Positions 10,479 to 21,436 of a DNA stretch of 64,000 nucleotides are shown here, in pieces. The first letter of the stretch is position 1. Each line of letters opens with the position of its first letter. Where the stretch lies: assembly GCF_008329965.1 (NCBI RefSeq), contig NZ_CP036150.1:248001-312000 (forward strand), written 5' to 3'. This DNA comes from Oceanispirochaeta crateris. GTDB lineage: Bacteria; Spirochaetota; Spirochaetia; DSM-2461. Made by a program: the position numbers and the translations under genes. The notes beneath the pieces were generated by a model, which saw only the letters and a list, made by a program, of their open reading frames with translations, searched no databases and had not been told where the DNA came from.

Positions 10479-10501
10479 TTTTATTTTAATAACTCTATAA
10501 A

Positions 10502-10530
10502 AAAGCCGCCTGGTAAAGGCGGCTTTTTTT
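10502..10530 (+). terminator. Intrinsic terminator of leuAB
   Basis: AAAGCCGCC, a seven-base loop, GGCGGCTTT and a run of T. Perfect GC-rich stem directly after leuB. Confidence 0.93.
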
Positions 10531-10704: not shown

Positions 10705-10739
10705 TAGATATTAAAATGACACATATCTATAATGTGTCA
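10705..10739 (+). promoter_or_regulatory. Promoter overlapped by a perfect inverted repeat (candidate operator)
   Basis: A consensus -10 TATAAT lies at 10728-10733 with TAGATA 17 bases upstream as a partial -35. The -10 sits inside TGACACAT (10717-10724), seven bases, ATGTGTCA (10732-10739), an exact 8-base inverted repeat. A dimeric repressor bound there would block RNA polymerase. The predicted transcript starts about 17 bases before the ATG, leaving only room for AAAGGAGG. The regulator is unknown; one that senses lipid or branched-chain metabolites would fit the gene, as inference. Confidence 0.6.
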
Positions 10740-10756: not shown

Positions 10757-13700
10757 ATGGACCTACAAACCTTCCGAAAAAATTACACCACTATGGTGAC
10801 AGCACGAGAAATGGATCTTTTGGAGCAAAGCTACACCGGCAGAGGTGAAGCATTCTTTCATGTTTCAGGAGCCGGTCATGAGGCTACCTGTCTTCTCCAG
10901 GATGTTCTCGGTCCCCAGGACTGGCTGCACTGCCATTACAGAGATAAAGCCCTTATGCTGGCTAGAGGCATTTCACCTGAAATGTTCTTCATGTCCCTTT
11001 TTAATAAAGACGGTTCCCACTCCAGAGGCCGTCAAATGAATGCTCATATGAGCGACCCCGCTAAGAAGGTTCTGAGTATCGTCGGACCTGTCGGCAACAG
11101 CGCTTTGCAGGCGGCAGGAGTGGCCGAAGCGGTCAAAGATCATCAGGATCATCCAATCGTCCTGTGTGGATTGGGAGATGGTATGTCTCAGCAGGGAGAA
11201 GTTCTTGAAGCCGTGGCCCATGCCGTCCGTAAAGAGTTGCCTGTCCTGTTTTTTATTCAGGATAATCAATTTGCCATATCAACCAAAACGGAGGGGCAGA
11301 CCTTCTTTTCCAGACCCGATGGACCTGCAGATGATTTTTACGGCATTCCCATAACAAGACTGGATGGCCGTCATCCCATGACTCTTCCCGAGGCTTTTGA
11401 AACTCTGGTAGGTGAAATGAGAGCAGATCGGAACCCCCGGATAGTCGTTTTTTCAGTTGAACGCCTTCATAGCCATACAAATGCGGATGACCATCGAGTC
11501 TACCGCTCTCAGGATGAAATCCAGAGTGCTCATGAAACAGGTGACCCTATAGTTCATTTGGGAAACTGGCTCATCGAACAGGGAATATCGGCGGAAGAGC
11601 TGGATCAGGAAGTTGAACAGATACGGGTTGCTCTGGCAGAAACAGCCCGGAAGGTTCAGCAGTCCGCAGACCCCCAGCCTGTCTTTAGCGCCAAGAGAGA
11701 GTTGCCGGCCCAGCTATGCGATCCGGAACAGGAATACAGAGGGACTCCTGGAAAGGAATCGCTTACAATGATAGAAGCCTTACGGGAAACCCTCCGGTTT
11801 CAAATGGGCCGAAATCCCGGAGTGGAGCTTCTGGGTGAAGATCTTGAAGATCCTAAAGGGGATGTTTTCGGTGTTACAAAGTCGCTGAGTCAGGAATTCC
11901 CAGGCCGGGTTCAGAACAGCCCCCTCACAGAATCTACAATCATCGGTCTATCCGTTGGCCGGGCCCTTGCCGGAAAACAGCCCGTGGCCTTTCTGCAGTT
12001 TGCGGATTTTCTTCCCATAGCCTTCAATCAGTTATGGGCCGAAGCGGGCAGCATGTTCTGGAGGACCGATGGAGGATGGCAGTGTCCCATGATCGTCATG
12101 GTTTCCTGCGGTGGTTATAAGCCGGGACTCGGTCCATTTCATGCCTCCAGCATGGAGGCTGTGGCCGCGCATATTCCCGGTGTGGATGTGGTCATGCCTT
12201 CCACGGCCGGTGATGCCGCTGGTCTGCTGAATGCCGCCTTCGAATCTAAAAGACCTACCATCTTCTTTTATCCCAAGGCCTGTCTGAATGAGGCTGTCAG
12301 CCGTACCAGCGGGGATGTTTCCCGACAGCTCGTACCATTAGGAGTCGCCCGGAAGCTCAGCGAAGGGGAACATATCAGTTTTGTGAGCTATGGAAATCCG
12401 GTCAAACTCTGTGTTAAGGCCGCCCAGACCCTTCTAGAACAGGGGATCACCAGCGATGTGATTGATCTTCGGTCCATCAGCCCTTGGGACAGGAATCAGG
12501 TTTTTGCATCCGCAGAAAAGACTGGACGGGTCATTATTGTCCATGAAGAGAATCGAACGGCTTCAATGAGCTCCGAGATTGCCGCCGAGCTGGCGGAGCA
12601 TGTAAAAGGACCGCTTATGGTTCGGCGCCTTGTGAGAGAAGATACCTTTGTTCCCTGTAATTTCGATAATCAGCTAGTCCTGCTGCCTTCCTATCAGAAA
12701 ATCCTGGAAACTGCAGTCGATCTGCTGGGTGGAAAAATCAGCTGGACAAAAGAGAAGGACAGTCATTCTGGACTTTTTACCGTAGAAATCATTGGGACCA
12801 GTCCTGCGGATGAAACTGCTGCCATCATTGAATGGAAGATCAAAGCCGGAGATACAATCACAGAAGGTCAGCTTATTGCCGATTTTGAAGCGGATAAAGC
12901 CGCAGCAGAGCTCAAATCTCCCGTTAGCGGTATTGTTGAAGAACTGTTGTTGGATGAAGGTGAAGCCGTTGAAATCGGTACACCGGCATTGACTGTCAAA
13001 ACCGATGCGGGAGGAGAGCTCCTCCTCAAGCCCAAGACGAAAGAAGAGCCTGGAGAGCCCCATATTTCCGGTATGAATCCCGATACCGGGAGGATTCTGC
13101 AAACTTCGGCTGCGCCATCGGAGGATAGGCGCCCTTGGATCTTGGATGTTGAGGGTGTCTTAGGTAGCCGGATTGTTGATAATGCTGAAATCATGGAGCA
13201 ATGTCCCGGTTGGGAGGAGGGTGAAATCTTCAAAATGACGGGCATTGAAAGCCGGAACTGGATTGCGGAAGGGGAAGACATCATCAGCCTTTCTGAAAAA
13301 GCGGTGAAAACTGTTCTGTCGCGAAACAATCTTAAACTGGAAGATCTGAGCCTGATCCTCGTTACTTCTGGAACACCAGGTACGATTACCCCCTCCTTGG
13401 CAACCCGGATTCAGCACACATTGATCCCCGAGGGAAAACACGGACTCTTCTGTCCTGCTTTTGATATAAATGCCGCTTGTTCGGGGTATCTCTATGCTCT
13501 GCAGAGTGCCTGGGATTTTCTCAATACCCGTCCGGACGGGATCATCCTTGTCGTGACGGCCGAAGTACTCTCTCCCTTGGTAGATCGAAGTGATAAATCA
13601 ACCTCACCCATTTTCGGTGATGCCGCTACGGCCACCATTGTGACAGGTTCACAGAGCCCGCTCCAGGGAAAAGCCCGTGTCTTCCGTCCAGTAACATCCG

Positions 13701-14089
13701 CCGCCGGTGAGGCTGGTACCATCCTCACAGTCCCTGCGGATCCAAATCAGACAATTTTTATGAATGGACCCAAAGTTTACCTAGAAGCCGTTCATAGTAT
13801 GATTTCCCTATTGGAAAATGCCTGTGATGAGGGTGGTATTGCCCTGGATGAACTGGATCTGATTGTGCCTCACCAGGCTAACCAGAGGATCATCAATGCG
13901 GTAAAACAGCGATTGAAACTTCCAGAAGAGCAGGTATACAGTCAGATCAAGAATAGGGGAAATACCTCTTCCTGCACGATCCCTCTCTGCCTTGAAAGTA
14001 TCCTTCAGGGATCTACAAAAGGTCTTTTGGGACTGACGGCTTTTGGTGGCGGATTCACATCTGCCGGCGGACTGGTGGAAATTGTTTAA
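10757..14089 (+). CDS. Four-part fusion: 2-oxoacid dehydrogenase E1-alpha / E1-beta / lipoyl domain / KAS III (FabH)
   Basis: One uninterrupted 1110-aa frame. Residues 1-325 are E1-alpha with the thiamine-diphosphate motif GDGMSQQGE (140) to DNQ. Residues 334-655 are E1-beta with the GEDLEDPKGDVFGVT and LGPFHASSMEA segments. Residues 672-755 are a biotinyl/lipoyl domain with Lys714 in the EADKA turn. Residues 791-1110 are a full KAS III with Cys908 (NAACSG), His1039 (PHQANQR) and Asn1069 (NRGNTSS); their 131 and 30 residue spacings match FabH. E1 would decarboxylate a 2-oxoacid and acylate the lipoyl arm. KAS III could then condense that acyl group with malonyl-ACP to prime branched-chain fatty acids. 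No E2 acyltransferase or E3 is nearby. The function as a whole is inference; the domain calls are firm. Confidence 0.9.
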   Translation: MDLQTFRKNYTTMVTAREMDLLEQSYTGRGEAFFHVSGAGHEATCLLQDVLGPQDWLHCHYRDKALMLARGISPEMFFMSLFNKDGSHSRGRQMNAHMSDPAKKVLSIVGPVGNSALQAAGVAEAVKDHQDHPIVLCGLGDGMSQQGEVLEAVAHAVRKELPVLFFIQDNQFAISTKTEGQTFFSRPDGPADDFYGIPITRLDGRHPMTLPEAFETLVGEMRADRNPRIVVFSVERLHSHTNADDHRVYRSQDEIQSAHETGDPIVHLGNWLIEQGISAEELDQEVEQIRVALAETARKVQQSADPQPVFSAKRELPAQLCDPEQEYRGTPGKESLTMIEALRETLRFQMGRNPGVELLGEDLEDPKGDVFGVTKSLSQEFPGRVQNSPLTESTIIGLSVGRALAGKQPVAFLQFADFLPIAFNQLWAEAGSMFWRTDGGWQCPMIVMVSCGGYKPGLGPFHASSMEAVAAHIPGVDVVMPSTAGDAAGLLNAAFESKRPTIFFYPKACLNEAVSRTSGDVSRQLVPLGVARKLSEGEHISFVSYGNPVKLCVKAAQTLLEQGITSDVIDLRSISPWDRNQVFASAEKTGRVIIVHEENRTASMSSEIAAELAEHVKGPLMVRRLVREDTFVPCNFDNQLVLLPSYQKILETAVDLLGGKISWTKEKDSHSGLFTVEIIGTSPADETAAIIEWKIKAGDTITEGQLIADFEADKAAAELKSPVSGIVEELLLDEGEAVEIGTPALTVKTDAGGELLLKPKTKEEPGEPHISGMNPDTGRILQTSAAPSEDRRPWILDVEGVLGSRIVDNAEIMEQCPGWEEGEIFKMTGIESRNWIAEGEDIISLSEKAVKTVLSRNNLKLEDLSLILVTSGTPGTITPSLATRIQHTLIPEGKHGLFCPAFDINAACSGYLYALQSAWDFLNTRPDGIILVVTAEVLSPLVDRSDKSTSPIFGDAATATIVTGSQSPLQGKARVFRPVTSAAGEAGTILTVPADPNQTIFMNGPKVYLEAVHSMISLLENACDEGGIALDELDLIVPHQANQRIINAVKQRLKLPEEQVYSQIKNRGNTSSCTIPLCLESILQGSTKGLLGLTAFGGGFTSAGGLVEIV

Positions 14090-14119
14090 TTTATCTGTTC
14101 AATAAGGGCTGTTCAATAA

Positions 14120-14156
14120 GGCTGATTCTGGTGTAAACCCAGATCAGCCTTTTTTA
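14120..14156 (+). terminator. Terminator after the E1-lipoyl-KAS III gene
   Basis: GGCTGAT...ATCAGCC stem with a short loop and six T residues, 30 bases after the stop. The T-run reaches the 3' end of the convergent dus gene. Confidence 0.85.
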
Positions 14157-17533: not shown

Positions 17534-17980
17534 ATGAGCGATTATATAAAAAACCATTCCTTTATAAATTCCATCATCGGAGAAGGCACAAAGTTCAATG
17601 GTGAGCTGGTGTTAAATGGCCTTCTCAGGATTGACGGTGATTTTTCAGGAAGTATCAATACAAGCGGTAAAGTTCTTATTGGTAAAACTGGCCGAGCTGA
17701 ATGTAATATCATTGCCGGTACTGCGGTCGTGGGTGGTGTTGTCCATGGCAACATTTTTTCATCAGGGAAAGTTGTCATTCTGGCAACAGGCATGGTCGTA
17801 GGAAATATTCAGGCCAAGAAGCTGGTTGTTGAAGAAGGTGTTCTTCTTCATGGAAGCTGTGTTATCAAGGGTGAATCTGAATCAAGCGAAGATACTCCCA
17901 CTCCGGCCGTTGGCAGCAGTTACTCCGTAGATTGGCAATCCGATTCCAAAGATACGGGTGTCTCTGGAGAAAGCCGCTGA
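17534..17980 (+). CDS. Bactofilin (polymer-forming cytoskeletal protein) 1
   Basis: A 148-aa protein with the bactofilin core of hydrophobic beta-helix rungs: SIIGEGTKFNGELVLNG, LRIDGDFSGSI, GKVLIGKTG and GNIFSSGKVVIL. Bactofilins polymerise without nucleotide into filaments on the inner membrane and guide cell-wall enzymes. A Ser/Asp-rich tail follows the core. AAGG lies upstream of the ATG. The stop overlaps the next start (TGATG), so it is coupled to the YaaR-like gene, and it follows the M23 peptidase gene. Confidence 0.9.
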   Translation: MSDYIKNHSFINSIIGEGTKFNGELVLNGLLRIDGDFSGSINTSGKVLIGKTGRAECNIIAGTAVVGGVVHGNIFSSGKVVILATGMVVGNIQAKKLVVEEGVLLHGSCVIKGESESSEDTPTPAVGSSYSVDWQSDSKDTGVSGESR

Positions 17981-21028: not shown

Positions 21029-21436
21029 ATGACATCATCATTGAAGGATATTGAATCTATTTCCACAATCCTTGGAAGTGAAACTGTTTTCAAGGGTACA
21101 ATGAAATTTAACAAACCTCTTAAGATTGACGGAAAATACGAAGGCCGTATTGAGTCAGAAGGGTTCCTTTATATTGAAGAAGGAGCCGAAGTCCGGGCAG
21201 ATATTCAGGTCGGTTCTATCGTTGTAGGCGGTATTGTCTATGGTGATATTGAGGCTTCAGAGAAACTTGAAATGCTTTCAACCGGTCAGGTTATTGGTAA
21301 CATTCGCACGGCAAAATTGAAAATTGCCGATGGAGTCAAATTTGAAGGGAAGTGCGATATGATCAGTAATCCCGAATCTGTGGATGTATTCTCAGTTCCT
21401 GTAGAACAACTCAAACAAGACCACAATGACCTTTGA
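21029..21436 (+). CDS. Bactofilin 2
   Basis: A 135-aa second bactofilin, with the rungs TILGSETVFKGTMKFNKPLKIDGKYEGRI (short segments), GSIVVGGIVYGDIEASEKLEML and VIGNIRTAKLKI. It is clearly paralogous to the bactofilin at 17.5 kb and shares its rung order. It sits in a small operon between the TPR protein and PncC/CinA, and its 3' end overlaps the next gene by 11 bases. Two bactofilins within 4 kb suggest hetero-filaments or distinct positions in the cell. Confidence 0.9.
   Translation: MTSSLKDIESISTILGSETVFKGTMKFNKPLKIDGKYEGRIESEGFLYIEEGAEVRADIQVGSIVVGGIVYGDIEASEKLEMLSTGQVIGNIRTAKLKIADGVKFEGKCDMISNPESVDVFSVPVEQLKQDHNDL

Follow-up and report, generated by a model that had tools for sequence, protein, structure and literature searches.

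Can a 2-oxoacid be turned into a fatty-acid primer on one polypeptide, with no free acyl-coenzyme A (acyl-CoA) on the way? In the textbook account, fatty-acid synthesis starts from free acyl-CoA, and the question is raised by a single gene of the spirochaete Oceanispirochaeta crateris, which we analyzed within a stretch of 64,000 nucleotides of contig NZ_CP036150.1 (positions 248,001 to 312,000; hereafter the window). The gene encodes a chain in which the alpha and beta parts of a 2-oxoacid dehydrogenase (E1) are followed by a lipoyl domain and by a domain resembling the ketosynthase KAS III (3-oxoacyl-acyl carrier protein synthase III). From its sequence, the product probably converts a 2-oxoacid directly into a fatty-acid primer on one chain, the acyl group passing from the lipoyl arm to KAS III without release as free acyl-CoA.

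The forward-strand frame at 10757-14089 starts at an ATG that follows AAAAGGAGG, runs through 1110 codons and ends at a TAA stop. Pfam matches, counted only above gathering cut-offs, run in the order E1_dh (residues 11-308), Transket_pyr (335-510), Transketolase_C (529-638), Biotin_lipoyl (688-743), ACP_syn_III (902-966) and ACP_syn_III_C (1024-1108), and the scan of the chain found no 2-oxoacid_dh domain (the catalytic domain of E2, PF00198), no domain binding E3 (dihydrolipoyl dehydrogenase) and no PP-binding (acyl carrier protein, ACP) match. The lipoyl residue K714 and the KAS III residues C908, H1039 and N1069 are identical in 28 of 28 aligned homologues, and the E1 active-site residues H240, E392, Q414 and H462 are invariant in the family alignment. 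The first-pass annotation had read all four parts, with their catalytic residues, in one frame, and the Pfam matches and this invariance bear it out; its statement that E2 is absent holds for the chain and not for the genome, which has three E2 genes. In an AlphaFold model (mean pLDDT 82, pTM 0.67), residues 789-1110 adopt a thiolase-type FabH fold (best Z 39.4, rmsd 2.2, 310 residues aligned) and residues 333-659 an E1-beta fold, with the Thermus branched-chain E1 at Z 38.8; the fold search confirms these two folds only, and a single-chain model cannot show lipoyl docking.

A search for this domain order, which the first-pass annotation had advised, recovered 19 loci at 45-79% identity in a scan of named genomes, from Spirochaetota, Accumulibacter, Cysteiniphilum, Marinobacter, a Burkholderiales metagenome-assembled genome (MAG) and a Verrucomicrobiota MAG. 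One of these loci (L021) is cut by a contig end, and the match at L022 was retained despite a longer antisense frame there. The fusion is carried by 14 of 393 sampled genomes of the spirochaete phylum, full-length in 11, cut by a contig end in one, aligned piecewise within a single open frame in another (G130) and with two frameshifts in the last (G203). Since full-length homologues at 45-79% identity occur in several phyla, a chance open reading frame or an assembly chimera is excluded, and the E1-lipoyl-KAS III chain is a conserved, real family. The 28 aligned members are not all independent, those of Cysteiniphilum being nearly identical. The two apparent frameshifts of the G203 gene (L091:7826-11342) lie one in its E1 alpha part and one in its lipoyl part, and reflect either sequencing error or decay. 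A Rep3 replication initiator gene (L024:8998-9738) adjoins the fusion in the Burkholderiales MAG, where the locus is possibly plasmid-borne. A literature search found no description of the E1-lipoyl-KAS III architecture, which is not proof of absence.

The KAS III part departs from FabH at the site where CoA binds. FabH sandwiches the CoA adenine between Trp32 and Arg151 and fixes it with Thr28, and it grips the pantetheine through Arg36 and two Asn residues (PMC4606726); Arg36 and Arg249 are likely ACP-binding (PMC9040583). The 28 fused KAS III domains were compared in one alignment with 19 rows of free FabH; two rows are the same gene, leaving 18 distinct enzymes, of which one is E. coli FabH and 17 come from the 14 carrier genomes. 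Trp32 is present in 18/18 free FabHs and is replaced in the fused domains by Asp (18), Glu (7) or Lys, Gly and Ala (1 each). Arg151 is likewise conserved in 18/18 free enzymes, the fused domains having Pro (11), Phe (6), Lys (5), Tyr (4), Thr (1) or Val (1), and Thr28, found in all free FabHs, is kept in 6 of the 28. The Cys/His/Asn triad, Asn247 and Arg249 are retained in every fused domain and Arg36 in 22 of them. Therefore, the portion of the donor site specific to CoA has been lost and the portion needed by any pantetheine or ACP retained. The window protein has Gly818, Glu823, Met827 and Lys947 at FabH positions 28, 32, 36 and 151, and R1044 at that of the ACP-docking Arg249; the free FabH of the same genome carries both Trp32 and Arg151. 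Thus, the domain shares with FabH the fold, the triad and the docking Arg, but it is without the Trp32/Arg151 clamp of acyl-CoA-using FabHs, is fused to E1 and lipoyl parts, and scores as FabH-like but below the NCBIfam cut-offs (PRK09352, 227 versus 249; TIGR00747, 189.5 versus 292.1). On its sequence, we class it as KAS III-like and not as an acyl-CoA-using FabH.

The relatives of the chain suggest how it may have arisen. The nearest one without KAS III, at 37% identity over residues 13-751, is a single chain of spirochaete genome G211 (C108, locus L087:1602-4835), which shares the first three parts, but in which an E2 catalytic domain (2-oxoacid_dh, 8.8e-40) occupies the KAS III slot. This G211 protein is a whole E1/E2 in one chain, with the lipoyl site ANKG and the E2 motif DHRPING. 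Next, at about 36%, come single-chain E1s on Streptomyces plasmids (NZ_CP061282 and NZ_CP108424), whose neighbouring gene starts with lipoyl-E2-ACP-ketosynthase. At these loci (L085:13963 onward and L086:9908 onward), the lipoyl-E2-ACP-ketosynthase stretch is the loading part of a polyketide synthase/nonribosomal peptide synthetase (PKS/NRPS). In these cases, a related E1 supplies a ketosynthase line with no CoA step in evidence, but E2-like and ACP domains lie between the lipoyl domain and the ketosynthase, which is of the modular PKS type. In a tree of E1-beta sequences, the fusions fall into a single clade, with G211 as its closest neighbour and the PKS-adjacent Streptomyces E1s next, and the branch separating all of these from the E1s of pyruvate dehydrogenase (PDH) and branched-chain 2-oxoacid dehydrogenase (BCKDH) has a support of 1.0. 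The divergences of E1 and KAS III are correlated (rho 0.74 over 351 pairs), consistent with parts that were inherited together. We infer that the acyl-accepting domain was replaced in an E1 line serving carrier-protein pathways.

Because the fused KAS III domains have all lost a clamp that the free FabHs keep, and because a sister fusion fills the KAS III position with an E2 catalytic domain, the direct lipoyl-to-KAS III transfer proposed in the first-pass annotation gains support at the sequence level. We lean towards a 2-oxoacid dehydrogenase without E2, whose lipoyl arm passes the acyl group to KAS III itself. This CoA-independent start would derive from an E1-lipoyl-E2 chain in which a KAS III took the place of the E2 catalytic domain and afterwards lost its CoA-adenine site. 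In the cycle that we infer, both in its chemical steps and in its substrate, the E1 alpha and beta parts would decarboxylate the 2-oxoacid on thiamine diphosphate and reductively acylate the lipoyl group on Lys714. The arm would then hand the acyl group to Cys908 of KAS III in the same or a neighbouring chain, a transfer that would replace E2 and release no free acyl-CoA. KAS III would condense the acyl group with malonyl-ACP to give 3-oxoacyl-ACP, the first fatty-acid intermediate, and a shared E3 would reoxidise the lipoyl arm. Genes for E3 (above the TIGR01350 cut-off) and for lipoate ligase are present in all 14 carrier genomes, the source genome having two genes of the lipoate ligase/transferase family.

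Branched-chain 2-oxoacids are the most likely substrate on sequence grounds, and would give iso and anteiso chains. The E1 pocket motif QFADF is close to the QFADY of BCKDH, and spirochaete PDH E1s read WMTF/I/H-x-F there. The best solved relatives are human BCKDH alpha and Thermus E1 for the alpha part, and Thermus branched-chain E1 beta for the beta part (5.6e-54). With the BCKDH structures of Thermus and human E1, the chain has in common the alpha and beta folds, the active-site His, Tyr-Arg and Gln, and BCKDH likewise has one lipoyl domain, but the chain lacks the E2 catalytic and E3-binding domains and has KAS III in the place of E2. Two carriers, G130 and G203, are probably Spirochaeta africana and Salinispira pacifica, respectively. 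Salinispira pacifica, with a genome of 3.78 Mb, contains 11.7% iso-C15:0 as well as anteiso-C15:0 (PMC4511686). The same paper describes S. asiatica and S. dissipatitropha as unique in lacking iso-C15:0 (PMC4511686), which implies that this fatty acid is present in S. africana. The occurrence of iso-C15:0 in relatives of the carriers is consistent with branched products, as a correlation only.

Several points weigh against direct priming with branched chains. The 28 fused sequences share ancestry, and the residue losses may represent one or few events. In the window protein itself, the change from Arg151 to Lys is mild, and Arg36 has become Met. The fused KAS III domains group together in the tree with a support of 0.72, which is modest. 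With a third E1-E2-E3 set and a free FabH, the source genome may also run the ordinary acyl-CoA route. The iso-C15:0 link rests on inferred species identities, and the G203 gene, as assembled, contains frameshifts. Finally, the position of BCKDH Tyr102 is Phe418 in the window protein, as in Bacillus PDH.

This last residue, together with the placement of the E1 clade between the known types, would also suit direct transfer of an acetyl group derived from pyruvate, or of a propionyl group derived from 2-oxobutyrate, starting straight or odd chains rather than branched ones. One Accumulibacter MAG has citramalate synthase and LeuC, a route to 2-oxobutyrate, about 3 kb from its fusion (L013:5125-8413). 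We regard this alternative as rather unlikely, as acetyl priming is already covered in the carriers by PDH and FabH, and both E1 parts have branched-chain E1s as their best solved relatives.

A second alternative keeps the channelling but not the independence from CoA: a separate E2 would unload this lipoyl domain by acylating CoA, and KAS III would use acyl-CoA as FabH does. The active site of KAS III is otherwise FabH-like, and separate FabH, E2 and E3 genes, which had been proposed as something to look for, all exist in the source genome (G000, one contig of 4,012,482 bases), with one free FabH, the three E2 genes and E3 genes. They include a PDH set (aceE-E2-Lpd), 2-oxoglutarate dehydrogenase (sucAB) and a third set. 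This third set (L029:1514-6735; G000:C1 about 3,646,500-3,651,700) has the order E2-E3-E1 and a fused E1 of 830 amino acids with the motif MYCDF. At least one E2 is found in every carrier genome tested. Nevertheless, we consider the CoA-dependent route improbable: all free FabHs retain the CoA-adenine clamp and none of the fused KAS III domains does, and no E3/E1-binding domain or E2-recruiting docking part is seen in the chain. Use of this lipoyl domain by a separate E2 had been named as an outcome that would overturn direct transfer; separate E2s do exist, but each in the source genome adjoins its own E1 and spans its own lipoyl-domain region, and nothing shows such use. In G130, G096 and G381, the single E2 gene lies beside E1 genes of the PDH type, with an E1 alpha that exceeds the TIGR03182 cut-off, and no BCKDH-type E2 was found in these three genomes. 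It is very improbable that the lipoyl arm serves another acceptor while KAS III works in a pathway to a special product, either drawing its acyl donor from ACP or using a condensation partner other than malonyl-ACP. The fold search does list some KAS III relatives that act in this way, PqsD and BioZ among them, and the Streptomyces relatives of E1 load a PKS. However, no biosynthetic cluster lies around the gene, either in the window or in most relatives, and neither the ACP-docking Arg nor the decarboxylating His/Asn varies.

The neighbouring leuA and leuB had been taken as the source of a suitable 2-oxoacid, a view that did not hold: a terminator separates leuB from the fusion gene (Table 1) and the leu genes are not adjacent in most relatives, whose neighbours are unrelated (serS, a NeuB-like gene, acnA, dusB, dxs and lysA), and leuAB is therefore not usable as substrate evidence. 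No conserved gene neighbourhood was found across phyla. A link to 2-oxoglutarate through the neighbour acnA was considered and dropped, the next genes being serS and the neuB-like gene. Given the terminator on the leuB side, the upstream repeat and the hairpin after the stop codon, the fusion gene is probably transcribed as its own unit. The inverted repeat TGACACAT-N7-ATGTGTCA is the sole perfect copy in the genome, degenerate forms occur upstream of the fusion genes of close relatives (L009, L010 and L015), and it is possibly an operator for a dedicated regulator. As a marker of a wider regulon it was rejected, there being no second perfect copy and 13 degenerate matches per strand, about twice the control (6). 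An Rfam scan of the window returned nothing. Elsewhere in the window, a bactofilin-family gene (PF04519) at 17534-17980 is preceded by an M23 peptidase gene, and an open reading frame at 21029-21436 falls in the same similarity cluster.

Table 1. Features of the fusion gene and its flanks, in window coordinates
Feature	Position	Strand	Basis
Intrinsic terminator between leuB and fusion gene	10499..10529	+	13-pair stem and T run
Inverted repeat overlapping TATAAT (-10-like), 23 bases, upstream of gene; possible operator	10717..10739	.	
Whole gene, 1110 amino acids, single chain E1alpha-E1beta-lipoyl-KAS III	10757..14089	+	Frame, Pfam and alignment
E1 alpha, thiamine diphosphate-binding dehydrogenase domain, residues 11-308	10787..11680	+	PF00676, 1e-39
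E1 beta domain, residues 335-638, pocket motif QFADF	11759..12670	+	PF02779, PF02780
Lipoyl domain, about residues 672-750, family motif EAIGSSPSDE	12770..13006	+	PF00364, 1.1e-14; alignment
Lipoyl Lys714 codon	12896..12898	+	Invariant, 28/28
Variable linker from lipoyl to KAS III, about residues 751-790	13007..13126	+	Low model confidence; without E3-binding domain
KAS III (FabH-like) domain, residues 795-1108	13139..14080	+	PF08545, PF08541; FabH fold, Z about 39
Glu823 at FabH Trp32 position (CoA adenine stacking)	13223..13225	+	Alignment; Trp lost in all fused relatives
Active-site Cys908	13478..13480	+	Invariant, 28/28
Lys947 at FabH Arg151 position (CoA adenine stacking)	13595..13597	+	Alignment; no fused relative with Arg
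Active-site His1039	13871..13873	+	Invariant, 28/28
Active-site Asn1069	13961..13963	+	Invariant, 28/28
Terminator-like hairpin 3' of gene	14118..14155	+	Read from sequence; imperfect stem, missed by terminator scan

The closest known system is BkdABC of Photorhabdus, a 2-oxoacid dehydrogenase set that, with a ketosynthase, makes a 5-methyl-3-oxohexanoyl thioester and iso-fatty acids (PMC4578411, PMC3838401), and in which BkdB includes an ACP domain dependent on a phosphopantetheinyl transferase (PMC4578411). A plasmid search for BkdABC-like sequence gave no full-length match, and the comparison is by description only: BkdABC leads, and the window enzyme would lead, from a 2-oxoacid to a 3-oxoacyl thioester by way of an acyl carrier and not only CoA, but BkdABC consists of three separate proteins with an ACP in BkdB, whereas the window encodes one chain with neither an ACP nor an E2 domain. 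Making a 3-oxoacyl thioester from a 2-oxoacid is thus already known from BkdABC, and the window enzyme is a variant of that theme; what seems new is the single chain, the lack of E2 and ACP, a KAS III without the CoA-adenine site, and the wide spread.

The claim is directly testable, as the same genomes pair a clamp-bearing free FabH with a clampless fused KAS III. If it is true, the fusion would be a ready single-gene tool for branched fatty acids and an unusual case of a lipoyl arm serving carbon-carbon bond formation. For the bacteria that carry it, it would provide a second way to start fatty acids, in which a dedicated enzyme, and not the acyl-CoA pool, sets the branched-chain composition.

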